Shown here piece after piece: positions 3,195 to 62,868 of a stretch of 64,000 nucleotides of DNA; position 1 is the first letter of the stretch, and the number at the start of each line of letters is the position of its first letter. Under the pieces are notes generated by a model. The model saw nothing but the letters and a program-made list of their open reading frames with translations, had not been told where the DNA came from and ran no database searches. The position numbers and the translations under genes were made by a program. The stretch is from positions 1,094,999 to 1,158,998 of the forward strand of contig NZ_KE150413.1 of the NCBI RefSeq assembly GCF_000411255.1, read 5' to 3'. This stretch comes from Paenibacillus sp. HGH0039. Its GTDB lineage: Bacteria > Bacillota > Bacilli > Paenibacillales > NBRC-103111.

Positions 3195-3224
3195 TTGGCT
3201 TTTTGGGAAAACGCCTACTATAAT
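3195..3224 (+). promoter_or_regulatory. Sigma-A-like promoter for the DUF1802 gene
   Basis: TTGGCT and a perfect TATAAT are separated by 18 bases, 43 bases before the GTG start at 3267. Confidence 0.65.
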
Positions 3225-3266
3225 AAGAGGGAGTGAGCCGAATAACGGGCAAGAGAGGTGTAAACG

Positions 3267-3860
3267 GTGACACATTCCCAAATGGCGTTGAAAGAATGGG
3301 CTTCGGCCGTACAGGCTTTGGAGCAGGGCGAGCAGATTCTCATCATGCGCAAAGGCGGCATTCGCGAAGAAACGCGGGATTTCCGCGTCGTTTCCGATGC
3401 TTTTTACCTGTATCCTACCTACGAGCACCAGAAGCCGCATCTCATCAAAGATTCCGCGCAGCCGAGACTTCAAGAAACGTTGGACGGCTGGAATCCGGAC
3501 GACAGGCAGGTGACGATTTCCTCCTGGGCCGAATTGGTCCGCGACATCGAAATAAGTGACGGGGAGACGCTGGAGAAGCTGCAGCCTTTTCATATCTGGA
3601 CCGAAACCTTTGCGGAGGAAAGATTGAAGTGGAAGCGCAAGCAGCCCCTTCATGTCATGCTGCTCCGTGTGTATAAGCTGGACAACCCGGTTACCCTGGC
3701 CGTCGATCCTTCCTATGAAGGCTGCAAGTCCTGGATCGAGCTTCACGGGGAGCTGGAGTCCGCCGGCAGAACGCCGGTGCTGAGCGACGAAGCGTTCCGG
3801 GCGGCGGTGGAGAGAGTGGAGAAAGCTCTGGCGGACGACGGGCCGGTCAACGGGGCTTAG
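3267..3860 (+). CDS. DUF1802 family protein
   Basis: This 197-residue cytosolic protein matches the DUF1802 family as I recognise it: an N-terminal ALKEWA segment, a KGGI-E motif, FYLYPT-EHQ, and a central WAE-V block followed by HIWT--F---RL-WK. The family has no established function. The start is a GTG preceded by AGAGGTG at a short spacing, and a good promoter sits just upstream. There are no membrane segments or signal peptide. It stands alone between dps and the suf operon. Confidence 0.75.
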   Translation: MTHSQMALKEWASAVQALEQGEQILIMRKGGIREETRDFRVVSDAFYLYPTYEHQKPHLIKDSAQPRLQETLDGWNPDDRQVTISSWAELVRDIEISDGETLEKLQPFHIWTETFAEERLKWKRKQPLHVMLLRVYKLDNPVTLAVDPSYEGCKSWIELHGELESAGRTPVLSDEAFRAAVERVEKALADDGPVNGA

Positions 3861-30260: not shown

Positions 30261-30535
30261 AGGTTTCCTCCTATGGGATGAATTTCCTGGATATATGGTG
30301 AAGAAACAATGCCTTTTATGAGAAACACATGAGAATTACATAAGCGGAATGTGAGAATGGCGTTAATTTTCTCTCTCGCGTTTTTCCGGCCGAAAGGGCG
30401 GGGAAGCATCAAATAGGCTTGATGGAACAGCTTTTTACAGCAGCTTCAGCGGTGGATTAAAAAAATGAAAAGGTTGTTTTCTGCCAATTTGTGTGTGTTT
30501 GTTTCTAAAGATGTATGTGATAGCTTGTGTAGAGA
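30261..30535. other. Intergenic region upstream of riboswitch 1
   Basis: No gene is seen. The promoter for the riboswitch transcript should lie here, but I could not identify -35 and -10 boxes with confidence. Confidence 0.4.
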
Positions 30536-30697
30536 GCCGAAACTTCTTCCGTTTCCCGGATTTTCCAGGAGAGGAGGAGGTGCGGGGGATGATTTATTTC
30601 GGAACCGTGTGTATGACTGCGGCGTCCGATAGGGGTGAATCGCTGGCAGCAGCGTGGGCGACTTCTCAGTCCGAACCCGACAACTAACCTCGTAGGC
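30536..30697 (+). promoter_or_regulatory. Cyclic di-AMP riboswitch (ydaO/yuaA type), copy 1
   Basis: The conserved blocks of the ydaO motif appear in order: GCGGGGGA (near 30583), AGGGGTGAATCGCTG (near 30632), then CCGAACCCGACAACTAACC and CGTAGGC up to 30697. A 5' GCC at 30536 can pair with the closing GGC. This class is known to bind c-di-AMP and shut off cell-wall hydrolase and ion-transport genes. The next gene, 27 bases on, is a 3D-domain wall protein, a classic target. With so little space, control may act on translation. Confidence 0.85.
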
Positions 30698-30724
30698 AAT
30701 ACCGAGAAGGAGCGTACATCAACT

Positions 30725-32791: not shown

Positions 32792-32946
32792 GGGGAACCC
32801 TCCTCTAATGGCGTTTTCACTAGTTTTGTTTAGAGGGAGGAATTTTATCCGGGATTTGTTACAAAATAGACACAACAAAAAGGGTTGTCCGATTATGTAA
32901 ATTATGTTAACCTTTTTAGGAGTGTCTTTGACACAATTTATACAAA

Positions 32947-33061
32947 GCCGAATCCGGTGAATCAAAAGCACCTGTACGGGGGACTTATTTCTGGGGTGAA
33001 TGCCTGTCATTCTGCAAGCTAGGGAACCTCTTTCCCGAACCCGTCAACTAACCTCGGAGGC
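32947..33061 (+). promoter_or_regulatory. Cyclic di-AMP riboswitch (ydaO/yuaA type), copy 2
   Basis: The order matches copy 1: 5' GCCGAATCCGG, then ACGGGGGAC (near 32983), TGGGGTGAATGCC (near 32992), AGGGAACCTCTTTCC, and CCGAACCCGTCAACTAACC with CGGAGGC closing at 33061. The next gene is an NlpC/P60 hydrolase whose AAGGAGG lies 3 bases after the element, so ligand binding could directly mask ribosome access. Confidence 0.9.
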
Positions 33062-33080
33062 CCAAGGAGGAAAAATCGTT

Positions 33081-51768: not shown

Positions 51769-52896
51769 TCATTTGGTCTTGTTTTTGTTTGCCAGATGCA
51801 CGCTGTACCCGATAATGCGCGACAGCGATTTTTTGCGGATGTGGGGTTCGTCGAATTTCATCGGTTTGGAATTGGCTTCGAAAAACCAGATGCGTCCGTC
51901 GAGATCGACGCCCAGATCCATCGACATCTCTCCGAGCTTCTGCTTGGAGGTCTGTTCTACGCTGCTTGCCATAAGCAGTGCGGTGCTGCGCGTCCGCTGG
52001 AGAATCCGTTTGGCCTTGAGCGGCCCGAATGATTTCTCCAGCAGCCGTTCCGGATCGTCGATGGAGCCTCCCCGAGGCACATGTGTCGTAATGCTCTGCC
52101 TGCCGGCGACTCTGGCTCCGATTCCGGTTACGCTCCACGTGCCTTTCGACGTTTTCTGAAGAAGCGCTCGCAGATCGAAAGGACGTTTGTTAAAGCTTGA
52201 AAGGCGGATTCCCTGCTGAATGATGTAGCTTTCGTCCTTTTTGATCTCGGCAATCCGGTTCCAGACATCGGATAAGTTCGTGAATAACTCGTAATGCGAA
52301 TTCACAGTTTCCTGCATGGTCAGCTTGTAAGTCTGCGCTCCGCTTTTCTTCGTGATCCGTTCCAGGCGCATGATCCCCTTGCCGGCTTTCCCTTCAACCG
52401 GTTTGAGGTAGATGAAAGGGAACCGTTTGAGCATCGACTCCAGAACGGCCTGGCTGCTCAACTGCTTCGTAACCGGCACGTATTTGCGGATTTCGGGAGA
52501 CTGATCGAGCCATTCGAAGAGCGTCCATTTGTCGAAAAAGAACGGATTGAACAAGTGAACCTGCTTGCTGCGGATGCAGGCCTGGATCGTCCGCTGAACG
52601 TCACTCTGAATTTCGAGCCGGCGTGTCGGGATCCGGTTGTAAATGACGTCGGGAAGAGGCATCAGCTGTTTGTTCCATTTTTTCGCGGTCAACTGATAGC
52701 AGTAGGCCTGAACATGCTTGCCGCTCAATTTCAGATCGGATGTAGTGACTACATAAACGAGAGCACCCTGTTCGTAGCCGGCTTTAATCAAATCAATGAA
52801 ATTTTCACGATTTCCCGAGAATCGGCGTTTTGGATCGGGTGTTGTTAAAATTCCGATGCACAGAGGCTGCTGCTTTTTATGGGCGCTTACGTCCAC
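51769..52896 (-). CDS. YheC-like ATP-grasp spore coat-associated protein
   Basis: This 375-residue protein belongs to the YheC/YheD family. It starts with CIGILTTPDP, then VIYNRIPTRR, FFDKWTLFEWL, an ATP-grasp core with FIYLKPVEGKAGKGIMRLER, TTHVPRGGSIDD and the metal-binding MDLGVDLDGRIWFFEANSKPMKF. It lacks the N-terminal extension of its longer neighbours. The start is a GTG sharing one base with the previous stop (TAGTG), preceded by GAGGAGG. It is the last gene of a four-gene operon. Confidence 0.88.
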   Translation of the reverse strand: MDVSAHKKQQPLCIGILTTPDPKRRFSGNRENFIDLIKAGYEQGALVYVVTTSDLKLSGKHVQAYCYQLTAKKWNKQLMPLPDVIYNRIPTRRLEIQSDVQRTIQACIRSKQVHLFNPFFFDKWTLFEWLDQSPEIRKYVPVTKQLSSQAVLESMLKRFPFIYLKPVEGKAGKGIMRLERITKKSGAQTYKLTMQETVNSHYELFTNLSDVWNRIAEIKKDESYIIQQGIRLSSFNKRPFDLRALLQKTSKGTWSVTGIGARVAGRQSITTHVPRGGSIDDPERLLEKSFGPLKAKRILQRTRSTALLMASSVEQTSKQKLGEMSMDLGVDLDGRIWFFEANSKPMKFDEPHIRKKSLSRIIGYSVHLANKNKTK

Positions 52897-54263
52897 TAAC
52901 CATCCCTCCTCGCACGAAAGCGGCTTAAATAGACGCAGTGCTCATAGATATAGTTAAGGGAAGCTTTATCCTGGGCTTTCAACCCCGGGTGTTTGAAGAT
53001 GGAACGTCCCGGCTTCGCATTGGCTTCGAACATCCACGTGTTTTCGTTCTGGTCGATGCCGAGGTCGAATCCGAGCTCGCCCAGACGGTGATTGTAATTT
53101 TTTTCGATCGCTTCCGCAAGCTCGATAGACGTCTCTTTCATCCGGGACAAAACAGCATCGCTTCTGCTGCCGTACACCTGTTTCAGCGCCTGCTCCGCCG
53201 TCATCAGCTGGCCGCCGTTGCGCAGGTGGGTCGTGACGCTTCCTTTGCCGGCTTTTTTAGCGCCGATGGCGGCGACGACCCACTGATTGCTTCCGTTCTT
53301 GGTCAGATGGAAGCGGAAATCAATGGGGCAGCCGTCGATCTCGATCAGCCGGATTCCCTGCTGGGTCACATAGCTGGTCAGCTTTCCGCGATTGATGCCG
53401 AGCATTTTGACGAGCCCTTCGAATTTGTTGAAGCGCAGCAGTACATTTTTGCCGTTGCGGCGGTAGCGTACGAAATATCCGCGGTCCGTCGAATACGTAA
53501 TGCGGTAAATGCCGATGCCGAGGCTTCCGGCCGTTGGCTTCAGATAGATAAATTTGTGGCGGGTGAGAAGGTCCTTCAACTGATCCGCCGAAGGATCCAG
53601 GACCGATTCCGGCACGTATTTGAAGGCCGGATCGTTTTCAAGAAGCCGGTACACATCCCACTTATCGAAGAAAGCCCAGTTGAATAAAGGGATATTCCGT
53701 TTGACGAAGCGCTGCTTGAAGTCCTCCATGGAGAGCAATTTCTCCGCTTTGCGGCTGGGAAGACGGTTGTAAACCACATCCGGAAGAGGAACGGTTTTAC
53801 GGACCCAGCCTCCCTGCGGTTGAAGCATATAGCCGTTTACAGTGCCCTGCTGCCAGTTGACATCCTTAGGCGAAAAGGCGATGTGGAACGATTTGCGTTC
53901 CCCCGGCTGCATCAGCGAGCGGATAAACGGAGTTCTCGTTCCGAAAGGACCGGACGTGGTGCTGGCCACATTCGTCAGAATTCCGATTACGGGACCGAGC
54001 CGGATATCTTTGCCGCTTCCGCTCACTGCCAGGCACGGACCGATCCGCGGAAGTTTCACGGAAGTAATGACGGACTGGGGCAGATAGAGGTGGAGTCCGC
54101 TTTTTTTGATATACCGGGCCGGGAGTGTAATGGATTTGGAGCCGACCTGGAGCTGCAGCGTCTTGCTTTTTGACAAGTGCAGCGCCTTGGCCAGTTCACC
54201 GGATACCAAAATACTTTTTTCCTGTTTGGAATTTACGTGAACCGTGCACGTCGTCAAACTCAT
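52896..54263 (-). CDS. YheD-like ATP-grasp spore coat-associated protein
   Basis: This 455-residue protein has an N-terminal beta-rich region of about 90 residues, then the shared family core: VIGILTN, VVYNRLPSRKAE, FFDKWDVYRLLE, FIYLKPTAGSLGIGIYRI, TTHLRNGGQLM and LGFDLGIDQNENTWMFEANAKPGRS. AGGAGGG precedes the ATG, which is 4 bases after the stop of the gene before it. In Bacillus YheC and YheD associate with the spore; the ATP-grasp fold suggests a ligase reaction on a coat or cortex component. Confidence 0.88.
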   Translation of the reverse strand: MSLTTCTVHVNSKQEKSILVSGELAKALHLSKSKTLQLQVGSKSITLPARYIKKSGLHLYLPQSVITSVKLPRIGPCLAVSGSGKDIRLGPVIGILTNVASTTSGPFGTRTPFIRSLMQPGERKSFHIAFSPKDVNWQQGTVNGYMLQPQGGWVRKTVPLPDVVYNRLPSRKAEKLLSMEDFKQRFVKRNIPLFNWAFFDKWDVYRLLENDPAFKYVPESVLDPSADQLKDLLTRHKFIYLKPTAGSLGIGIYRITYSTDRGYFVRYRRNGKNVLLRFNKFEGLVKMLGINRGKLTSYVTQQGIRLIEIDGCPIDFRFHLTKNGSNQWVVAAIGAKKAGKGSVTTHLRNGGQLMTAEQALKQVYGSRSDAVLSRMKETSIELAEAIEKNYNHRLGELGFDLGIDQNENTWMFEANAKPGRSIFKHPGLKAQDKASLNYIYEHCVYLSRFRARRDG

Positions 54264-54267
54264 TGGG

Positions 54268-55413
54268 TTACCCTCCTAAACTTGTTGCCCCTGCCGGTTC
54301 CCGCTGCGTTCTCAGCAAATAGGCGGCGTACCGGACCGGATTAGAGGCGGCTGAGCGGGCGGTTATCCCGCCGTCAATGCTCTGGAAGGCTGCTCTGCCG
54401 GGCTTGGAATTAACCTCCAGAATGTGGATGCGTCCATCCCGGCAAACGCCGAAATCGATGCCCAGCTCGGCCAGACGCCCATGCGACGATTCCAGAATAA
54501 GCGCAATTCGATGGGATAAAACGGACAGTGTCTTCATTAGCCTGCCGGACGCCCCGCCGGGAAATTGTTCCCTCAGAAAAGCTTCGGCCTCGCAGGCGGT
54601 GCCACCGCCGTGGAGATTGGACGTCACGCTCCCCGGACCGCCCGAGCGCACAACCATCCCGGTCAACTTCCAAAGGCCGTGTTCGTCTTTTTGCATAAGA
54701 GAACGGATATCGTAAGCCGTACCGTCCGGTGTAGTCAGCGGCAGGTACTGCTGGAGCAAATAGCGGCGTTTGCCTATGAAACCGCGGACCCAGCGCCGCA
54801 TCTCCAGCGCCGTTCCGAAATCCCGCTGCACCGGACGGTTTGCCCGGTCGCGGCCGCGTACGCTCCAGGAAAAGTCCGGGCCGGGACTGCGGTAAACGTG
54901 CAGGGCGCCTTTGCCGTGCATGCCTGCTTCGGGCTTCAGAAAAGCGGCCCCGTGCAGTTCAAGCCACGGTTCAAGCTGGTGCGGCGAAGTCAGACGCCGG
55001 GTAAGCGGCAAATGCGGGGCGAGAGCCGGGTCGGCCGCCAGCAGGCGCTGGACGTCCCATTTGCCCCGGAGGCCTCCGCCCAGAAACCGGATCCCGGGCA
55101 GCTGGTGAAGCCGGTTCAGCTGCCGGCGGTAAAGCCGCTGTTCTGCGTAATTGGAGCAAAAGCAGCGGTCATAAAGGACGGCGGGAAGAGGGAAGGTGCC
55201 TTCTCTCCAGGCGGAATCCGAGGGACTGTACAGGAAGCCGTCCACCGTCTCGTACTCGAAAGAGATTCCGTCCGGGCTGAACACGATGACCTCGATTCCT
55301 TCGGCCGCCCCGTTCTGGCCCAGCTTCCGGAAAAAGGGTTCGGAATCTCCGGCGGGCGCCGCTTTACCCGGCGAGGCCAGAACGCCCAGACATCGATTCA
55401 CTGCATGATCCAC
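54268..55413 (-). CDS. YheC-like ATP-grasp protein, second copy
   Basis: This 381-residue protein is the shorter type, with LYDRCFCSNY, RGKWDVQRLLAADPA, FLKPEAGMHGKGALHVYRS, TSNLHGGGTACEAEA and LGIDFGVCRDGRIHILEVNSKPGRA. A GTG at 55413 is preferred because AAGGCGGTG lies immediately upstream; another GTG is 9 bases earlier. It is more GC-rich and diverged than the copy at 51769, arguing against a recent duplication. Confidence 0.82.
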   Translation of the reverse strand: MDHAVNRCLGVLASPGKAAPAGDSEPFFRKLGQNGAAEGIEVIVFSPDGISFEYETVDGFLYSPSDSAWREGTFPLPAVLYDRCFCSNYAEQRLYRRQLNRLHQLPGIRFLGGGLRGKWDVQRLLAADPALAPHLPLTRRLTSPHQLEPWLELHGAAFLKPEAGMHGKGALHVYRSPGPDFSWSVRGRDRANRPVQRDFGTALEMRRWVRGFIGKRRYLLQQYLPLTTPDGTAYDIRSLMQKDEHGLWKLTGMVVRSGGPGSVTSNLHGGGTACEAEAFLREQFPGGASGRLMKTLSVLSHRIALILESSHGRLAELGIDFGVCRDGRIHILEVNSKPGRAAFQSIDGGITARSAASNPVRYAAYLLRTQREPAGATSLGG

Positions 55414-55434
55414 ACAACCCACCGCCTTCTTGTT

Positions 55435-56820
55435 CTACATAAAGCCGGACAAATAAACGGCATAGTCAAGGAGACGCCGGACGGACGGCCGCACAAGCGG
55501 TTCCTCAGCCGCAGAGGGAAGGGAGAATTCCTCGCGGGAAGGCTTGGAGTTCACTTCCAGCAGTTTTACCTGCCCGGCCGCGTCCAGAGCCAGATCCACG
55601 CCGAGCTCCCCGAACGTTCCCTTCACGTTCCTGCTGATGGCCTGAGCGACTGTCAGCGCCGTACTTTTTAAAGTACGCTGAATGCTCCCTTTGCGTGAGG
55701 CCAAAGAAGTCCCGGCCAGCGCTTCCTGGACGGCCGTCATCGTTCCGCCTCTCGCGAGGTTGGATACGAAGTGCTGCTCCGCCGCGATCCGGGCTACGAT
55801 GGAGCTCAGAACCCATTCTCCTCCGCCGTCTCTCTGAACGAGGGCACGGAAATCGACGGGGCGGCCGCCGATCGTCAGCAGGTCCAGGCCTTCCTGGATC
55901 TGATAAGCCTGTGTCCGAATTTTTCCCGCCATATGGGAGTAAGCCTCGAAGAGATCGGGATAGGGAAGAACGACGGTCCCGCTGAGCGCGGAGAACCGGA
56001 CTTCACAGCTGCCGTCCTCCAAGACGTGCAGGCGGAAAATTCCTTTGCCGAGACTGCCGGAGGCCGGTTTTATAAATAAGGTCCGGTATCGGCCGGACAT
56101 GGCCTTCAGCATGTGATAGTTGGAGAACGGATGAGATTCCGGCAGGCAGTCCTGAAGAGCGGTCTCACTGCACAGGGCGGAGAATACGGCGTTCTTATCC
56201 AGGTATTTATCGTTGAAAATGTGCGTCTGGTGACGCAGTTGAACGGCTTTGAGGAAATGCTGGATTTCCGGTTTGTTTTCGTATTTGCGGGAAGTCAGCC
56301 GGTTGTAAATAACGTGCGGGACGGGAAAAATCCCTGTTCTCCATTCCTCGTCGTAATACAGTCCTCCCAGATCGGGAAAAGTGTGTATTTCTTCGGGAGA
56401 GAAAAAGAACAGGCTGACCCCGGCTTCCTCGCCTGCTTTGGTCAGCTCCCGGCAGAAGGTTGTCATGGAGCCGAACGGCATTTCCTGAGACGAATAGAGC
56501 CTGCTGAGCAGAACCCCGACGAGCGGACCCGCGTAAAGCGTGGCGGCGGAAGGCTGATAAACGAGCGAGAGCCTGCATCCGCCGCGAATGCCGAGCCGGC
56601 GCCCCAGCGCCGGATGAAGGCATAGCTCTTCGTCCGGACTCGCCCCCGGTTCCGCAGCCGTCCGGACCACCGCTTCGCAGGACGCGGAACCGAAGCGGAG
56701 CTTGACGGCGCTGTCCGGTGCCAATCGGTATGCCCGCATTATCCCCGCGCTCAGCAGAACGGTCCGTTCGTCTTCATAGAGAGCGGGATCGAGGCTGCGG
56801 ACATGGAAGATGCGGGTCAT
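55435..56820 (-). CDS. YheD-like ATP-grasp protein, first gene of the cluster
   Basis: This 461-residue protein is the longer type, with an N-terminal region of about 95 residues, VGVLLSRLYSSQEMPFG, VIYNRLTSRKYE, FIKPASGSLGKGIFRLHV, VSNLARGGTMTA and LGVDLALDAAGQVKLLEVNSKPSRE. AAGGAGC lies 7 bases before the ATG. The alternation long-short-long-short along the operon indicates two yheD-yheC units. Confidence 0.87.
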   Translation of the reverse strand: MTRIFHVRSLDPALYEDERTVLLSAGIMRAYRLAPDSAVKLRFGSASCEAVVRTAAEPGASPDEELCLHPALGRRLGIRGGCRLSLVYQPSAATLYAGPLVGVLLSRLYSSQEMPFGSMTTFCRELTKAGEEAGVSLFFFSPEEIHTFPDLGGLYYDEEWRTGIFPVPHVIYNRLTSRKYENKPEIQHFLKAVQLRHQTHIFNDKYLDKNAVFSALCSETALQDCLPESHPFSNYHMLKAMSGRYRTLFIKPASGSLGKGIFRLHVLEDGSCEVRFSALSGTVVLPYPDLFEAYSHMAGKIRTQAYQIQEGLDLLTIGGRPVDFRALVQRDGGGEWVLSSIVARIAAEQHFVSNLARGGTMTAVQEALAGTSLASRKGSIQRTLKSTALTVAQAISRNVKGTFGELGVDLALDAAGQVKLLEVNSKPSREEFSLPSAAEEPLVRPSVRRLLDYAVYLSGFM

Positions 56821-57012: not shown

Positions 57013-57041
57013 TTGACGAGAGACTAAAGTCCTTGTAAGAT
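57013..57041 (+). promoter_or_regulatory. Sigma-A promoter of the sugar ABC/PTS operon
   Basis: TTGACG and TAAGAT are 17 bases apart. Transcription should start near 57048, giving a leader of about 235 bases before the first gene. Confidence 0.7.
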
Positions 57042-57088
57042 GTAAGTAATTTCAATATTATCTTCATCCCGACAACTGCATACCCAAA

Positions 57089-57122
57089 CTTTAACATGTT
57101 ACCGAAAGGGCATAAGTTAAAG
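57089..57122 (+). promoter_or_regulatory. RAT-like antiterminator hairpin
   Basis: CTTTAAC (57089-57095) and GTTAAAG (57116-57122) form a 7-base stem, with internal-loop bases ATGTTA and GCATAA and an upper CC-GAAA-GG hairpin. The sequence ATGTTACCG and GGGCATAAG resembles RNA targets of GlcT/LicT-type antiterminators. It shares GTTAAAG with the following terminator, so the two structures exclude each other. Confidence 0.7.
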
Positions 57123-57157
57123 AAGTGATTTTGCTTCTTTGACTATGCCCTTTTTTT
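57105..57157 (+). terminator. Leader terminator of the sugar ABC/PTS operon
   Basis: AAAGGGCATA and GTTAAAGAAG pair with CTTCTTTGAC and TATGCCCTTT (20 pairs, one bulged A, one G-U), followed by seven T residues. It lies inside the untranslated leader, 125 bases before the first gene, with no gene ahead of it. Confidence 0.93.
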
Positions 57158-57240
57158 GTTCTCTCGGGACCACTAAGGAGGTGAGGAACTCCCGGTAAGA
57201 AGGCGTTGGTTGACAAAGCATCAGGGGGACCGCTTCAGTT

Positions 57241-57254
57241 TGTAACCGATTACA
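57241..57254 (+). promoter_or_regulatory. cre site (CcpA-binding palindrome)
   Basis: TGTAACCGATTACA matches all defined positions of the cre consensus TGWAANCGNTNWCA and sits 28 bases before the first gene, in position for roadblock-type catabolite repression. A TTGACA at 57210 may mark a second promoter, but its -10 is poor. Confidence 0.8.
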
Positions 57255-57282
57255 AAAGAACCTTTAAGGAGTGTTTGTACAC

Positions 57283-58647
57283 ATGAAAAGAAACAAATGG
57301 CTCAACATGGGAATTTCTTTGATGATGGTATCCGCAATTGCGGCAGGGTGCAGCAAAACGAACACAACGACTACGCCGGCAGCTACTCCGGGAGCGTCCT
57401 CGAACGCGAATTCGGGAGAAGCGGGCGGCAAAAAACTGACCGGCGAGTTCGAGATCCAATATTTTGTCGGCGGATACGGAGATACCTGGTGGAAATCGGC
57501 GATCGACGAGTTCCAGAAAGCTAATCCCGATCTGAAAATCAAGCAGTCCGCCGGAGCCAAAATCAACGATCAGATGAAACCCCGCTGGATTCAAGGCAAT
57601 CCGCCGGATGTGGTTTATATCGATGGAGCGGGCGCCAACGCGAGAACCATGTTTCAGGATGGCCAGCTCATGGACATTACCGACTGGTTGAAAACCGCCA
57701 AGAACGCGGACGGCAAAAACATTATGGACCTGTTCATTACCAAGCCGGAAGAGTACGAAGCAGGCAAATACTACGATGTTCCGCTCGTTTTCGGATCGTG
57801 GGGAACGTTCTGGGATCGTGCCGAGTTCAAGAAAAACAACTGGGAAGAGCCGAAAGACTGGGAGAGCTTCCTTGCGGTAGGCGACAAAATCAAAGCTTCC
57901 GGCAAAATGAGCGTCTACATTCACACCGGCGTGTACCCGTACTACATTAACGGGGCGTTCCTGGATTCCGCAACCGTGGCGGCGAACAACTACGATACGT
58001 CCGTTATTAAAAAAATCAACAACATGGAAGAAGGCGTATTCAAAAGCGAACCGGTTATGAAAGCGCTTGACAAGATCATTCAAATGCGCGATAAGGGCTT
58101 CATCGACAAGGGTTCCGTCGCTTTGAACCACACGGACTCCCAGACGCAGTTCCTTCAGCACAAAGCGGCCTTTATTCCGAACGGCCTCTGGGTAGAGAAC
58201 GAAATGAAAAAAGACGTGCCGCAAGGCTTTGAATTCGGATTCATTCCGTCCATTGCCCAGGAAAAAGGCGGAAAAAGCGTAGCCATTCCGACTACGGCTA
58301 CAATGGGTATCGCAAAAAAAGCGAAAAATCCGGAAGCGGCAAAAGCGTTCATCCAGTTTATTTTTACGGAGAAGCAAGCGGGGAAATGGGCGGAAGCGAC
58401 AGGCGCTCTGCTTAACGTGAAAACGAATCTTGACAACACGTCCGCAAGCACCTTGGCAAAAACGGCCATCAAATCCTACAGCTCCCCGGATACGGTCGTA
58501 GCGCCGGAGCCGGTTATTCCGGAAGACCTCAAAAAAGTGCGTAACGATTCCACGCTGGCTCTGACTCAAGGCACAATCACCAAAGAAGAGTGGGCGAAAC
58601 GTATGGAAGACGAAGCAGCCAAGCAGCGCGCCAAATTGAAAAAATAA
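57283..58647 (+). CDS. Sugar ABC transporter substrate-binding lipoprotein
   Basis: This 454-residue protein has a lipoprotein signal with A-A-G-C and Cys23, an acid/Thr-rich linker, and the family 1 sugar-binding fold (FQKANPDLKIK, PPDVVYIDG, YDVPLVFGSWGTFWDRAEF, TTATMGIAKKAKNPEAAKAFIQFIF). It most resembles the NgcE group that binds GlcNAc or chitobiose, which fits the PTS gene in the same operon. The ATG at 57283 is 9 bases after AAGGAG. Confidence 0.9.
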   Translation: MKRNKWLNMGISLMMVSAIAAGCSKTNTTTTPAATPGASSNANSGEAGGKKLTGEFEIQYFVGGYGDTWWKSAIDEFQKANPDLKIKQSAGAKINDQMKPRWIQGNPPDVVYIDGAGANARTMFQDGQLMDITDWLKTAKNADGKNIMDLFITKPEEYEAGKYYDVPLVFGSWGTFWDRAEFKKNNWEEPKDWESFLAVGDKIKASGKMSVYIHTGVYPYYINGAFLDSATVAANNYDTSVIKKINNMEEGVFKSEPVMKALDKIIQMRDKGFIDKGSVALNHTDSQTQFLQHKAAFIPNGLWVENEMKKDVPQGFEFGFIPSIAQEKGGKSVAIPTTATMGIAKKAKNPEAAKAFIQFIFTEKQAGKWAEATGALLNVKTNLDNTSASTLAKTAIKSYSSPDTVVAPEPVIPEDLKKVRNDSTLALTQGTITKEEWAKRMEDEAAKQRAKLKK

Positions 58648-58724: not shown

Positions 58725-59678
58725 ATGAAAGGAACACCTGTGACTAATCCGGCTGGAGCCATCGTGGCGAAAAAGCCGAAGGGCGGACGCTCCAAGGTAA
58801 GACGCAATCTGTTTATTGCTTCTTTTATCCTTCCGACTCTGCTGCTCTATCTCGTATTCACCGTTTATCCGATGCTGAAAGGCATCTATCTCAGCTTGTT
58901 CGACTGGTCCGGCGGCTCCATGGATTACAATTTTATCGGGCTGGATAATTTTAAAGAAATGTTCAAGGACCCCATTATACCGAAGGCCCTGCTGAACGAT
59001 TATTTCCTGGTTGCGGGCAAAGTGATTGGCTTTATGGTGCTCGCCCTGTTTTTTGCAGTCTCGCTTACCCGTCTCAAAATCAAAGGCTCCGGGTTTTACC
59101 GGGCGATCTTCTTCCTTCCGAACGTAATCTCCGTCGTAGTCGTCGGCGTGCTGTGGCGTTATGTCTACAACCCGAACCTGGGCTTTCTGAACTCCCTGAT
59201 CGGTGCGGTTAAAGGCGAGCCGTTCGTGTTTCCTTGGCTGGGAGATGCGGCAACGGCGATGTGGTCTCTGCTTCCGCCTTCGATCTGGGCCGGCGTCGGC
59301 TTCTGTACCTTGCTCTTGATCGCGGGAATTTTGAGCATCCCGGACTCTCTGTACGAAGCCGCAGGACTTGACGGCGCCACCCAGTGGCAGCAGTTCTGGC
59401 ACATTACGCTTCCGCTGACGTGGGAACAGATTCAGACGTCCGTGATCTGGATCGTGATGACGACACTGAACGGCTCCTTTATCATTGTCTCGATTATGAC
59501 CGAGGGCGGGCCTGATAACGCGACCCAAGTACTGGGCTCCTACTTGTACCAGCAGGGCTTCAGGCAGTATCACCTGAGCTATGCGGCGGCTATCGGCGTA
59601 TTGACGCTCTTTGTTTCTCTGATCACGACGGTTGCCTTGCAGCGCATTATGAAAAGAGAACCGTTAGAAATTTCGTAG
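58725..59678 (+). CDS. Sugar ABC transporter permease (MalF-like)
   Basis: This 317-residue protein has six membrane helices and the ABC permease EAA loop in EAAGLDGATQWQQFWHITLPLTW. GGAGG lies 7 bases before the ATG at 58725. It pairs with the next permease. An ATPase gene is absent from the operon, so a shared MsmX-type ATPase is likely supplied from elsewhere. Confidence 0.92.
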   Translation: MKGTPVTNPAGAIVAKKPKGGRSKVRRNLFIASFILPTLLLYLVFTVYPMLKGIYLSLFDWSGGSMDYNFIGLDNFKEMFKDPIIPKALLNDYFLVAGKVIGFMVLALFFAVSLTRLKIKGSGFYRAIFFLPNVISVVVVGVLWRYVYNPNLGFLNSLIGAVKGEPFVFPWLGDAATAMWSLLPPSIWAGVGFCTLLLIAGILSIPDSLYEAAGLDGATQWQQFWHITLPLTWEQIQTSVIWIVMTTLNGSFIIVSIMTEGGPDNATQVLGSYLYQQGFRQYHLSYAAAIGVLTLFVSLITTVALQRIMKREPLEIS

Positions 59679-59691
59679 AGGGGTTATATGC

Positions 59692-60537
59692 ATGAGTGAT
59701 GGACTGAAAAACCCGTTCTGGCGCATAGTCGTCAACCTGCTTTTAATCGTGTGGGCGATCATGGTGCTTTACCCGCTCGTCTGGACCGTTCTCGGCTCCC
59801 TGAAAGATAACCAGCAGTTTTTCCAGGGAAAACCGTGGAATCTTCCCCAATTTCCGCTGTTGTTCTCCAACTTCAGTTACGTTTGGGATAAATACCAGTT
59901 CGGCGGCTATTTTATGAATTCGATCATCGTTACGGTAGTCAGTGTCCTGGCGGGTCTCGTGCTTTCGGCAATGACGGCGTATATTCTGGCCCGGTTTGCC
60001 TTCAAGGGAAGCGGCGTCCTTTATTACGTGTATATCGCTTCGATGATGATTCCCATGTTCCTCGGGATGATTCCCCTGTTCTTCCTGATGAGCGATATGG
60101 GATTGACCAATTCCCTTCTTGGGCTTATCATCGTATACACAGTTTCTACCATTCCGTTCAGTGTGTTCGTCCTGGTCGGATTCTTCAAAACACTGCCGTC
60201 CGAAATCGAGGAAGCGGCCATGATGGATGGCGCCTCTTACTACGGCATTTTCTTCCGCATTATGATGCCTCTCGCCAAACCGGGACTCATTTCCGTCAGC
60301 ATCATCAACGTGCTGAATACGTGGAATGAATACATTCTCGGCGTCGTACTTAATAGTGAGCCTTCCAAATACACTCTTCCTGTGGGCATTGCCGTTATGC
60401 AAGGGGAGATGCAGTACCGGACGGAATGGGGTCCGCTGTTTGCGGCGCTTCTCATTTCCATGGTGCCGGTCATGATTTTCTATCTCATTTTTCAGCGTCA
60501 AATTGCCAGCGGAATTACAGCGGGTGCGGTTAAATAA
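59692..60537 (+). CDS. Sugar ABC transporter permease (MalG-like)
   Basis: This 281-residue protein has six helices and the EAA loop EEAAMMDGASYYGIFFRIMMPLAKP. It starts 13 bases after the first permease, preceded by GAGGGG. With the lipoprotein and the first permease it completes the membrane part of a carbohydrate importer. Confidence 0.92.
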   Translation: MSDGLKNPFWRIVVNLLLIVWAIMVLYPLVWTVLGSLKDNQQFFQGKPWNLPQFPLLFSNFSYVWDKYQFGGYFMNSIIVTVVSVLAGLVLSAMTAYILARFAFKGSGVLYYVYIASMMIPMFLGMIPLFFLMSDMGLTNSLLGLIIVYTVSTIPFSVFVLVGFFKTLPSEIEEAAMMDGASYYGIFFRIMMPLAKPGLISVSIINVLNTWNEYILGVVLNSEPSKYTLPVGIAVMQGEMQYRTEWGPLFAALLISMVPVMIFYLIFQRQIASGITAGAVK

Positions 60538-60581: not shown

Positions 60582-62015
60582 ATGCTGCATACGCTTCAAA
60601 AAATCGGCCGGTCTCTCATGATACCGATTGCCGTCCTGCCGGCCGCCGCAATTTTGCAGCGGCTCGGCGCTTTTACTTTCCAGGATCCGTTTCTGATCTT
60701 CATCTCGAAAATATTCAGCACAGGCGGCAATGCCATTGTGGATAACCTTCCTCTGCTGTTTGCGATCGGCATCGCAATCGGTATGACGTCCGGTCAAGGA
60801 GTGGCGGCGCTTGCGGCTACGGTAGGATACGTCGTGTTTGTGAGAGCGCTTGCGACTTTTGAAAGCGTACCCGTAGAGCAGACGACGCCCGGAGCCCATC
60901 TGGATATGGGTGTCCTCGGAGGGATGATGACGGGGCTTATCACCGTGATGCTGTTTAACCGGTTTCATAATATCAAGCTTCCGGATTACCTCATGTTTTT
61001 CGGGGGCCGGCGTTTTGTGCCCATCATTACCTCGCTCGTTATGGCGGGAATGGGGGGGATCATGGGCCTGATCTGGCCTCCTGTACAGGATGTGATCCGG
61101 GATGCGGGCCTCTGGATCGTAGATGCGGGGGGAATCGGCGTATTCATGTACGGCTTTCTGAATCGGCTTCTCCTGGTCACGGGTCTGCACCATATTCTGA
61201 ACAGTATCGTGTGGTTTCAGGTGGGCGAGTTCATGACAAATACCGGAACTTATGTTCATGGCGATATGACCCGCTACAACGCGGGCGATCCGAGCGCGGG
61301 CATGTTCATGAGCGGCTTTTTCCCGACGATGATATTCGGCTTGCCTGCGGCCGCTTTGGCGATGATCAAATGCGCGCTGCCGGAGAAGCGGAAGAAAGCG
61401 GCCGCTCTGCTTTACAGCGCCGCACTCACCTCGATGCTCACCGGGGTGACGGAACCGCTTGAATTTTCGTTTATGTTTGCGGCACCGCTGCTGTACGGAG
61501 TGCATGCGGTTCTGAACGGTCTTTCGATGCTGCTCATGCATCTGTTTAATATTAAGCTCGGTTTCAGTTTCTCGGGAGGATTTATCGATTTGTTGTTGAA
61601 TTGGAAATTAAAGGAATTTCCTTTTACGTTTCTGATCATAGGAGCTGTCTATTTTGTCGTCTACTACGGGTTGTTCCTGTTTCTGATTAAAGCCTTTAAA
61701 TTGAAAACCCCCGGCAGGGAAGAAGACTTTCCCGGTTTGACCGCGGCGATCGTATCTTCGGCCCCGCCCCCGGAGGAAGAACGGATTACGGCTATCGTGA
61801 ACAGCGTGGGCGGCATCGGCAATATCATCAAAGTGGACTCCTGCATAACCCGGCTGAGGCTGTGGCTTAAAGAGGCTGAAGAAGTGGAGGAAGAAAAACT
61901 GAAGGAACTGGGTGCATTCGGAATTATGAACATGGGAAAGGGACACGTGCACGTTATTTTCGGGACGGACTCGGAACTGATTAAGGAATCCATTGCCAAA
62001 CGTTTAGCTGCCTAG
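60582..62015 (+). CDS. PTS N-acetylglucosamine-type EIIBC
   Basis: This 477-residue protein imports and phosphorylates a sugar. Residues 1-380 are an EIIC domain of the glucose/GlcNAc superfamily (MIPIAVLPAAAILQRLG, GLHHILNSIVWFQ, TGVTEPLEF). Residues about 400-477 are EIIB with the phosphorylated Cys421 in VDSCITRLR. No EIIA is attached, so it must use another EIIA. GlcNAc is the likely substrate. It starts 44 bases after the permease gene, with AAAAGGTG before it. Confidence 0.9.
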   Translation: MLHTLQKIGRSLMIPIAVLPAAAILQRLGAFTFQDPFLIFISKIFSTGGNAIVDNLPLLFAIGIAIGMTSGQGVAALAATVGYVVFVRALATFESVPVEQTTPGAHLDMGVLGGMMTGLITVMLFNRFHNIKLPDYLMFFGGRRFVPIITSLVMAGMGGIMGLIWPPVQDVIRDAGLWIVDAGGIGVFMYGFLNRLLLVTGLHHILNSIVWFQVGEFMTNTGTYVHGDMTRYNAGDPSAGMFMSGFFPTMIFGLPAAALAMIKCALPEKRKKAAALLYSAALTSMLTGVTEPLEFSFMFAAPLLYGVHAVLNGLSMLLMHLFNIKLGFSFSGGFIDLLLNWKLKEFPFTFLIIGAVYFVVYYGLFLFLIKAFKLKTPGREEDFPGLTAAIVSSAPPPEEERITAIVNSVGGIGNIIKVDSCITRLRLWLKEAEEVEEEKLKELGAFGIMNMGKGHVHVIFGTDSELIKESIAKRLAA

Positions 62016-62031: not shown

Positions 62032-62868
62032 ATGATTCAAAGAAAAATCATTCACGTGCTTTCCCATAATGTAGTCATGACGAAGCTTTCGACCGGCAAA
62101 AATTCAATTGCGTTCGGCAAAGGAATCGGATTCAAAAAAGAACCAGGCATGATTATACAGGACGCCGATATTTCGCAGGAATTTCTGCTGCACACTTCGG
62201 AAGTGCTGGAGCACTACGAGCACATTCTTCATGCCGTTGACGTCAAAATTATCGGGATTACGGAAGAAGTGATCGCATACGCGCAGGGGCATTTGGAAGG
62301 GGAATTTTCCGAAACGATCCACGCCGCGCTGGTCGATCACATCAACTTTGCCGTGGAACGCTGCAAGCGGGGGGTTCATATCCTTAATCCGTTCGCTTAC
62401 GAAATCAAGCACTTGTACGAGGAAGAGTACCGGATAGCCAGCAAGGCGATCGATTTTCTGAATCAGCATCTGGATGTGAGGCTGCCGGACGATGAAATCG
62501 CTTTTCTCGCGATGCATTTCCATACCGCCCGGACCAAGGTGGAAAAAGGAACGGCGCTTGCGGTGGTCAGACTGGTCGCCCAGGTAATCGAGAGAGCCAA
62601 GGAACTCGGTCTGGATTTTGACAATTCGTTCTCGACCGTCCGTTTTATTTCTCATTTAAAAGCGCTTATCGACCGGATCATGGAACAAAAAACGATACGG
62701 AATCCCCTGCTGGGTAAAATCTGCGAGGAATATCCCCTGGCGTTTCAAAAAGCGGTCCTTTTGGCGGAACTGCTCAAGGCGAATCTCCAAAAACCGATTC
62801 CGATGGATGAGATCGGCTTTCTGGCTCTTCACCTCGAACGGCAGATGCAGCGCTCCGGGATGGACTAA
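62032..62868 (+). CDS. PRD-containing transcription antiterminator (GlcT/LicT type)
   Basis: This 278-residue protein has an N-terminal RNA-binding CAT domain (residues 1-60, RKIIHVLSHNVV, GKNSIAFGKGIGFKK) and two PTS regulation domains (about 70-170 and 175-278), with conserved His-containing segments LVDHINFAVERC, LAMHFHTAR and LALHLERQ. It should bind the RAT-like hairpin in the operon leader and be controlled by phosphorylation from the EIIBC encoded 17 bases upstream. Confidence 0.93.
   Translation: MIQRKIIHVLSHNVVMTKLSTGKNSIAFGKGIGFKKEPGMIIQDADISQEFLLHTSEVLEHYEHILHAVDVKIIGITEEVIAYAQGHLEGEFSETIHAALVDHINFAVERCKRGVHILNPFAYEIKHLYEEEYRIASKAIDFLNQHLDVRLPDDEIAFLAMHFHTARTKVEKGTALAVVRLVAQVIERAKELGLDFDNSFSTVRFISHLKALIDRIMEQKTIRNPLLGKICEEYPLAFQKAVLLAELLKANLQKPIPMDEIGFLALHLERQMQRSGMD

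Follow-up and report, generated by a model that had tools for sequence, protein, structure and literature searches.

A conserved RAT–terminator leader ahead of ABC importer and PTS genes in Paenibacillus, with further copies before glycosidase and peptide-synthesis loci

The leader of a five-gene operon in Paenibacillus sp. HGH0039 contains a RAT hairpin that overlaps an intrinsic terminator, and it is highly probable, judging from its sequence, that the two constitute a BglG/SacY-type antitermination switch worked by the product of the operon's last gene (62032–62868). This set of five genes follows the same leader in 44 genomes, including that of the window (the whole 64,000-nucleotide stretch analysed here, the positions of which are used throughout), confirming the original prediction in its description of leader and operon. 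Overall, the system is a form of BglG/SacY antitermination whose set of targets is unusual. Its features, all on the plus strand, are as follows.

57013..57041, plus strand: sigma-A type promoter, TTGACG-17-TAAGAT (sequence; conserved upstream of homologous RATs)
57089..57122, plus strand: RAT (ribonucleic antiterminator) hairpin (fold, covariation, 89 homologous sites)
57105..57157, plus strand: intrinsic terminator with a T7 tail (fold; excludes the RAT)
57241..57254, plus strand: cre-like palindrome TGTAACCGATTACA, candidate CcpA site (consensus match)
57283..58647, plus strand: ABC importer solute-binding protein (SBP), NgcE-like, of the N-acetylglucosamine/diacetylchitobiose type (TIGR03851, 220 bits)
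58725..59678, plus strand: ABC permease 1 (PF00528)
59692..60537, plus strand: ABC permease 2 (PF00528)
60582..62015, plus strand: PTS EIICB, NagE-like (TIGR01998, 512 bits)
62032..62868, plus strand: BglG/SacY-family PRD antiterminator, CAT_RBD and two PRDs (Pfam)

The RAT (CTTTAAC-ATG-TTA-CC-GAAA-GG-G-CAT-AA-GTTAAAG) is built from a 7-bp lower stem, a 0/2 bulge, RUG paired with CAU, a UUA/G internal loop and a CC-GAAA-GG cap, that is, a hairpin with two asymmetric internal loops, overlapped by an intrinsic terminator. The terminator had been predicted with 20 pairs; its fold supports the terminator itself, with 22 pairs and one bulged base. The predicted overlap of the two elements also stands, and is larger than the GTTAAAG first proposed: the terminator 5′ arm contains the complete 3′ half of the RAT (AAAGGGCATAAGTTAAAG, 57105–57122), and the two hairpins are therefore mutually exclusive. 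In a transcript ending before the terminator's 3′ arm, the minimum free energy fold is the RAT (−9.9 kcal/mol), whereas in the full leader it is the terminator (−29.5 kcal/mol); folding of the growing transcript gives the RAT first and the terminator once the terminator's 3′ arm appears. Folding of 57048–57160, suggested as a check with the original prediction, gave z = −5.33, with folds as good in 0 of 200 shuffles. Two other, overlapping promoter candidates lie between 57001 and 57061, besides TTGACG-17-TAAGAT.

No curated Rfam family matches the leader at gathering score (an rli60 match is sub-threshold, at 29 of 60 bits). To our knowledge there is no Rfam family for RATs, so this is not a strict test. 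A first RAT search pattern, which had the wrong spacing, was discarded: it gave 7 matches in the window compared with 3.6 expected, none of them the site at 57089–57122. Elsewhere in the window, two c-di-AMP (ydaO/yuaA) riboswitches (30525–30713 and 32936–33076, 2.4 kb apart on the same strand) both exceed the Rfam gathering score.

Two covariance models were used to collect homologous leaders: R1, trained on ABC/PTS leaders only, and R2, whose training set also held some extra, non-transporter sites. R1 matched in 46 of 104 genomes of the window's family (E 0.01) and in 55 of 392 genomes of the order (E 0.001); R2 found 48 sites in 45 of the 104 family genomes (E 0.01) and another 41 in a second family, where 28 of 394 genomes had a site (E 0.003). 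This search of related genomes, also proposed at the outset, brings the total to 89 RAT leaders, spread over 73 of the 498 genomes from two Paenibacillus families, duplicate loci having been removed before counting. Left out are two weak R1 matches without a full RAT and absent from R2 (G063:C25, E 0.006; G075:C26:620642, E 0.008), and 13 antisense matches on the palindromic terminators of already counted sites. The predicted sigma-A promoter is borne out by the match at 57013–57041 and by these leaders: within about 90 bases upstream, 87 of the 89 show a promoter with 9 or more of 12 matches (19.7 in mononucleotide shuffles), and the best promoter starts with TTGAC in 83 (mean 1.1 in the shuffles). 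The window's own genome has a single site, both by pattern (3 mismatches) and by both models; a RAT regulon within that genome was thus rejected. RAT matches are absent from 14 of the 59 family genomes that have a close SBP relative. Several RAT genomes carry extra SBP paralogues away from any RAT match, and in genus g21 many genomes have SBP paralogues nearer to the window's (62–68%), again away from any RAT match.

The claimed hairpin is also upheld by covariation. In two alignments (A1, 34 of the 52 leaders then collected; A2, 30 chosen, more diverse leaders), RAT pairs are formed in 96.3% and 93.3% of cells, with changes on both sides in 22 and 23. The covariation scores (0.254 and 0.241) are above all 500 shuffles, which ignore relatedness, and far above slid controls (at most 0.063 for A1). 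The number of pairs with a change on both sides does not go beyond the shuffles (145 of 500 reach the observed value for A1, 62 of 500 for A2), and further pair types are within the shuffle range (117 of 500 and 22 of 500, respectively). The lower stem varies with compensation and the RUG-UUA-CC...GG-G-CAU core is nearly fixed, as expected for a protein-binding site. The terminator, scored in fixed columns, is lower (87.1% of cells, 0.139); by eye, its register moves between clades.

In 88 of the 89 leaders a terminator is built with the RAT's GGGCAT strand, a count that is partly built in, as the models include the terminator 3′ arm. This bears on the possibility that the leader is mainly an element of RNA processing or stability, with RNase III, for example, acting on the shared hairpin and antitermination playing a minor part. 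In the nagY leaders of Enterococcus faecalis, RNase III cuts a sequence common to both hairpins and cooperates with NagY, according to the available portion of PMC12502629. However, a T-tailed terminator kept in 88 of 89 leaders would be superfluous in a pure stability element, and we consider this explanation very unlikely.

The gene content claimed for the operon, an ABC importer plus PTS genes with a PRD antiterminator at 62032 as the last gene, is supported by profile matches. With a permease 1 start at 58725, a codon picked by eye in a frame open from 58590, the intergenic gaps range from 13 to 77 nt. No EIIA domain was found in the EIICB. The antiterminator consists of an N-terminal CAT RNA-binding domain (PF03123, E 1.5e-12) followed by two PRDs (PF00874 in two stretches, E 1.6e-44), and its H103, H162, H208 and H267, presumably the regulatory histidines, are invariant in all 13 aligned proteins. 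It is 99% identical in NZ_BBJT01000004.1, and the window genome is close to P. chitinolyticus. Its best NCBIfam match is GlcT (NF047357), at 232 bits against a cut-off of 320; we rejected its assignment as GlcT, as a true GlcT lies elsewhere in the genome (L002, 382 bits), to which it is 30% identical. Divergent from the operon, on the minus strand at 52896–56820, are three adjacent ORFs (455, 384 and 461 aa) with stretches in common by eye, which we take to encode ATP-grasp/YheC-type spore-coat proteins.

On the favoured reading, the switch would work as follows. Transcription would start at the 57013–57041 promoter. With no inducer, the PTS, probably via the EIICB at 60582, would phosphorylate the PRDs of the antiterminator and inactivate it; the terminator at 57105–57157 would then form and transcription would stop. 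On uptake of the EIICB substrate, most likely N-acetylglucosamine (GlcNAc), the antiterminator would be dephosphorylated and dimerise, and the dimer would clamp the RAT at 57089–57122 before the terminator 3′ arm emerges. Polymerase would then continue into the genes for the ABC importer, the EIICB and the antiterminator, and the sugar sensed by the PTS would thereby also turn on the ABC importer.

That the ABC genes are targets in their own right is suggested by the contexts of all 89 sites, 80 of which lie 72–415 nt upstream of a sense-strand transporter gene match. Of these, 44 (the window's included) precede the five-gene ABC–PTS–antiterminator order. A further 16, in eight genomes (P. soyae, P. 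paeoniae, P. pinisoli and five others), belong to a split arrangement of two units with one RAT each: [RAT]-EIICB-antiterminator, then [RAT-terminator]-SBP-permease-permease; in J5C2022 (G512) the two units are on different contigs. The remaining 20, in 20 genomes, precede SBP-permease-permease with no EIICB or antiterminator after it; at the five loci checked, the genes past the second permease are varied and unrelated. The separate RAT that the split genomes keep for each unit argues against control of the ABC genes being a by-product of operon fusion, and two RATs would hardly persist there if the ABC genes were mere passengers. The split and ABC-alone genomes thus support the original proposal that one PRD antiterminator/RAT switch covers both the ABC importer and the PTS genes.

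The ABC-alone genomes also bear on which protein reads the RAT. In 8 of the 20, the RAT–ABC unit is divergent from an antiterminator–EIICB operon, with an EIIA gene between, as seen by eye at the three divergent loci that were read and in L127; in two others such an operon lies upstream of the unit. At the three divergent loci, the operon carries a RAT of its own, capped by CUAG and not by CC/GG. No close antiterminator orthologue was found in the 12 ABC-alone genomes searched whole: ten have a 29–35% identical antiterminator, and two (G352 and G387) have a partial match only. Among the other eight, for which the neighbourhood was covered, five show a 28–32% identical neighbour. The protein that reads the ABC RAT may therefore differ between clades. 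In G352 and G387 the sole antiterminator match (G352:C1:62669-63181, L165; G387:C73:16049-16561, L164) covers residues 6–173, the RNA-binding domain and one PRD, and is possibly a one-PRD antiterminator.

Such distant relatives raise the possibility that the genome's true GlcT (L002), and not the 62032 protein, acts on the RAT and places the operon under glucose control. A second, 29–35% identical antiterminator is indeed common, with a full-length match in 13 of 19 genomes searched, and a protein of this kind lies near the RAT–ABC unit in 10 of the 20 ABC-alone genomes. Within the 104 genomes of the window's family, however, all 39 that encode a close orthologue of the 62032 protein have the RAT, compared with 6 of the 65 that lack such an orthologue (an association to which kinship contributes), and in 52 genomes, 44 with the five-gene order and 8 split, a 62032-type gene is part of a RAT-led unit. 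Control by GlcT is therefore very unlikely, and the operon's own antiterminator is the preferred reader. Two genomes (G084 and G064) carry second, orphan antiterminator copies (L091:10049-10858 and L095) that are 66–67% identical and without PTS neighbours; no RAT was found upstream of either. Upstream, both have the stretch CTTGGTCGAYTTTTGCGGG...CCCAACAATTGGGAGG, which includes a small inverted repeat.

The nine sites outside transporter operons comprise two before GH20 genes, one before a GH84 gene, four before non-ribosomal peptide synthetase (NRPS) loci (one a remnant) and two in tandem. The GH20 and GH84 targets are secreted enzymes of the beta-N-acetylhexosaminidase type. The tandem pair (L202 in G408, 3208–3380 of the reverse complement) consists of two near-identical RAT–terminator cassettes 90 nt apart, downstream of an antiterminator–EIICB pair and ahead of a methyl-accepting chemotaxis protein gene, itself followed by a ribose-type ABC operon. 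The surprising part is the NRPS loci. In P. lutrae N10 (G001) the RAT is followed by panD (aspartate decarboxylase, PF02261) and then NRPS genes, the scanned parts of which hold nine condensation-domain stretches. In P. paeoniae (G498) it precedes a 346-aa protein without a Pfam or NCBIfam match at the thresholds used, and then NRPS genes; in G086 it lies directly ahead of an NRPS gene with a methyltransferase domain; and in G268 it precedes a 147-aa NRPS fragment that is 51% identical over 109 aa to the start of the P. lutrae NRPS. Three of these sites are recovered by R1, trained without NRPS sites (per-genome E 3e-5, 1.6e-4 and 1e-8), and the fourth, on which R2 was not trained, by R2 (E 3.8e-4). 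All four NRPS genomes (L056 in P. paeoniae) and both GH20 genomes (G078 and G391) encode a close orthologue of the window's antiterminator; the GH84 genome (G359) has only a 32% identical antiterminator, and in G408, for which the neighbourhood was covered, a 30% identical one lies beside the tandem RATs. Two further details concern the clusters themselves: panD as the first gene before the P. lutrae NRPS genes (L133, 3026–3409 of the reverse complement) suggests a beta-alanine building block in the peptide, and in G268 (L138, 3123–5960) the leader is kept before a truncated NRPS gene followed by opposite-strand ORFs, a decayed cluster.

These solitary RATs before NRPS, glycosidase and chemotaxis-receptor genes could be chance matches or functionless decayed copies. 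Each extra leader was seen in one genome among those searched, one of the NRPS genes is a truncated remnant, and seven of the nine sites score below the majority of transporter sites (per-genome R2 E 1.3e-7, 9.9e-7, 3.5e-5, 3.8e-4, 5.3e-4 and 9.2e-4, with 1.3e-3 for the second tandem copy). The other two, by contrast, equal many transporter sites in strength (GH84, 6.0e-9; NRPS remnant, 3.8e-8). Moreover, all nine lie in sense upstream of a gene and have an overlapping terminator. A promoter with at least 9 of 12 matches stands upstream of seven, that is, of all but the GH20 site in L211 and the second copy of the L202 tandem, and a model trained without any of the nine recovered five of them. 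Four NRPS loci are also unlike what random matches would hit. An origin by chance or decay is thus unlikely. Because relatives carry the RAT before ABC-only operons, hexosaminidases and NRPS loci, it probably serves as a regulon signal that works in trans.

The extra sites also inform the identity of the sugar. The EIICB scores best with the NagE model TIGR01998 (512 bits, cut-off 553), and the NgcE model TIGR03851 is the best for the SBP (220 bits, cut-off 400), as it is in all four loci tested, each time below cut-off. The original description of the two uptake systems as unrelated was therefore rejected: both transporters bear a GlcNAc signature, albeit sub-cut-off, and RATs also precede GH20 and GH84 genes. 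Taken as a whole, that interpretation is partly supported. None of the SBP, EIICB and antiterminator reaches the cut-off of its best model, which leaves the sugar uncertain: the same switch could respond to glucose or another hexose, with the ABC importer carrying some other oligosaccharide. The best curated family of the antiterminator is GlcT, and the EIICB reaches 485 bits with the glucose model, also below cut-off. Set against this are the separate GlcT (382 bits, cut-off 320) and PtsG (782 bits, cut-off 592) in the same genome, the extra RATs ahead of N-acetylglucosaminidase genes and the preference of the SBP for the NgcE model; we regard another sugar as unlikely. GlcNAc or its oligomers are the likely inducer and substrate, the importer probably carries GlcNAc-containing oligosaccharides, and the leader system is most likely a GlcNAc/chito-oligosaccharide regulon analogous to that of NagY. 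The closest solved structure to the SBP by sequence, 9h0n, a galacto-/lacto-N-biose binder of B. infantis, is only a suggestive pointer to its substrate.

The cre-like palindrome begins 84 nt past the terminator, within the transcribed leader. TGTAACCGATTACA at 57241–57254 fits TGWAANCGNTNWCA, which we take as the cre consensus, in full on both strands, and accounts for two of the three consensus matches in the window (0.06 expected). The CcpA site of the original prediction is thus supported by a full match, and CcpA may act there as a roadblock to elongation. A cre-like match near the RAT occurs in 5 of the 89 leaders, all of the window's genus, and cre was accordingly rejected as a general feature of these leaders. 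Between terminator and cre, at 57175–57198, lies a near-perfect Shine-Dalgarno sequence, AAGGAGGTGA, with no proper gene downstream, just a five-codon frame (GTG-AGG-AAC-TCC-CGG-TAA). Both the Shine-Dalgarno sequence and the length of the frame are kept in the genus' five leaders (the window's and L012–L015), and the element could be a 5′ stabiliser or belong to a tiny leader ORF.

The known targets of SacY/SacT, LicT and GlcT are PTS permeases, glycosidases or levansucrase. Unlike the targets of these B. subtilis regulators, those of the Paenibacillus RAT also include an ABC importer, and the window protein is only 30% identical to its own genome's GlcT. The shared features are the CAT_RBD with two PRDs, the four conserved histidines and the competition of RAT and terminator (for SacY see also PMC9981650). 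The available portions of PMC9981650 and PMC12502629 describe an experimentally tested system, NagY (nagY-nagE and hylA leaders of E. faecalis), that is similar in several respects: a PRD antiterminator of a NagE-type PTS, a RAT overlapping a rho-independent terminator, and a RAT core with AUG...GGCAU (NagY sequence in PMC12502629). The NagY targets are nagE and a polysaccharide (glycosaminoglycan-degrading) lyase gene, the second acting on amino-sugar polymers, a further point in common. Unlike in the NagY system as described there, the Paenibacillus operon has three ABC importer genes at its start, its RAT is capped by CC-NNNN-GG and not by a CUAG stem, and sites also precede ABC operons without PTS genes, GH20/GH84 genes and NRPS loci. 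Effects of BglG-family proteins on ABC genes have precedents: seven ABC transporters are among the genes lowered in a nagY mutant, and E. coli BglG affects the ABC-transporter gene oppA (Harwani et al. 2012, as cited in PMC12502629). What is new is thus the extent of such control and its conserved terminator-coupled layout, and not the principle. As summarised in PMC12502629, most RAT-like motifs in the survey of Gordon et al. 2015 are without terminator overlap; unlike those motifs and BglG/oppA, the Paenibacillus RAT and terminator overlap, and the overlap is conserved. Among titles and abstract openings on antitermination with Paenibacillus, NRPS, GlcNAc or ABC operons, in a collection that mostly excludes subscription journals, none reports such a regulon.

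PRD antitermination is usually presented as private to PTS operons. The RNA cassette described here looks like a portable regulon element, standing before an ABC importer without PTS genes and, in four genomes, before NRPS loci, and the covariance models can be used to find further members. The chances are evenly balanced that a GlcNAc-sensing PRD antiterminator serves as an in-trans RNA master switch, with one portable RAT–terminator cassette, set before unrelated genes, tying the ABC importer, secreted N-acetylglucosaminidases and NRPS clusters to a PTS sensor. In Streptomyces, control of antibiotics by GlcNAc is exerted by DasR, a DNA-binding repressor; here, too, GlcNAc metabolism would be tied to secondary-metabolite genes, but the link, unlike that of DasR, would be RNA antitermination. 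If the proposal is true, the system would be an RNA counterpart of the DasR link from amino-sugar supply to antibiotic production, and GlcNAc would be the predicted trigger of Paenibacillus peptide-synthesis clusters.
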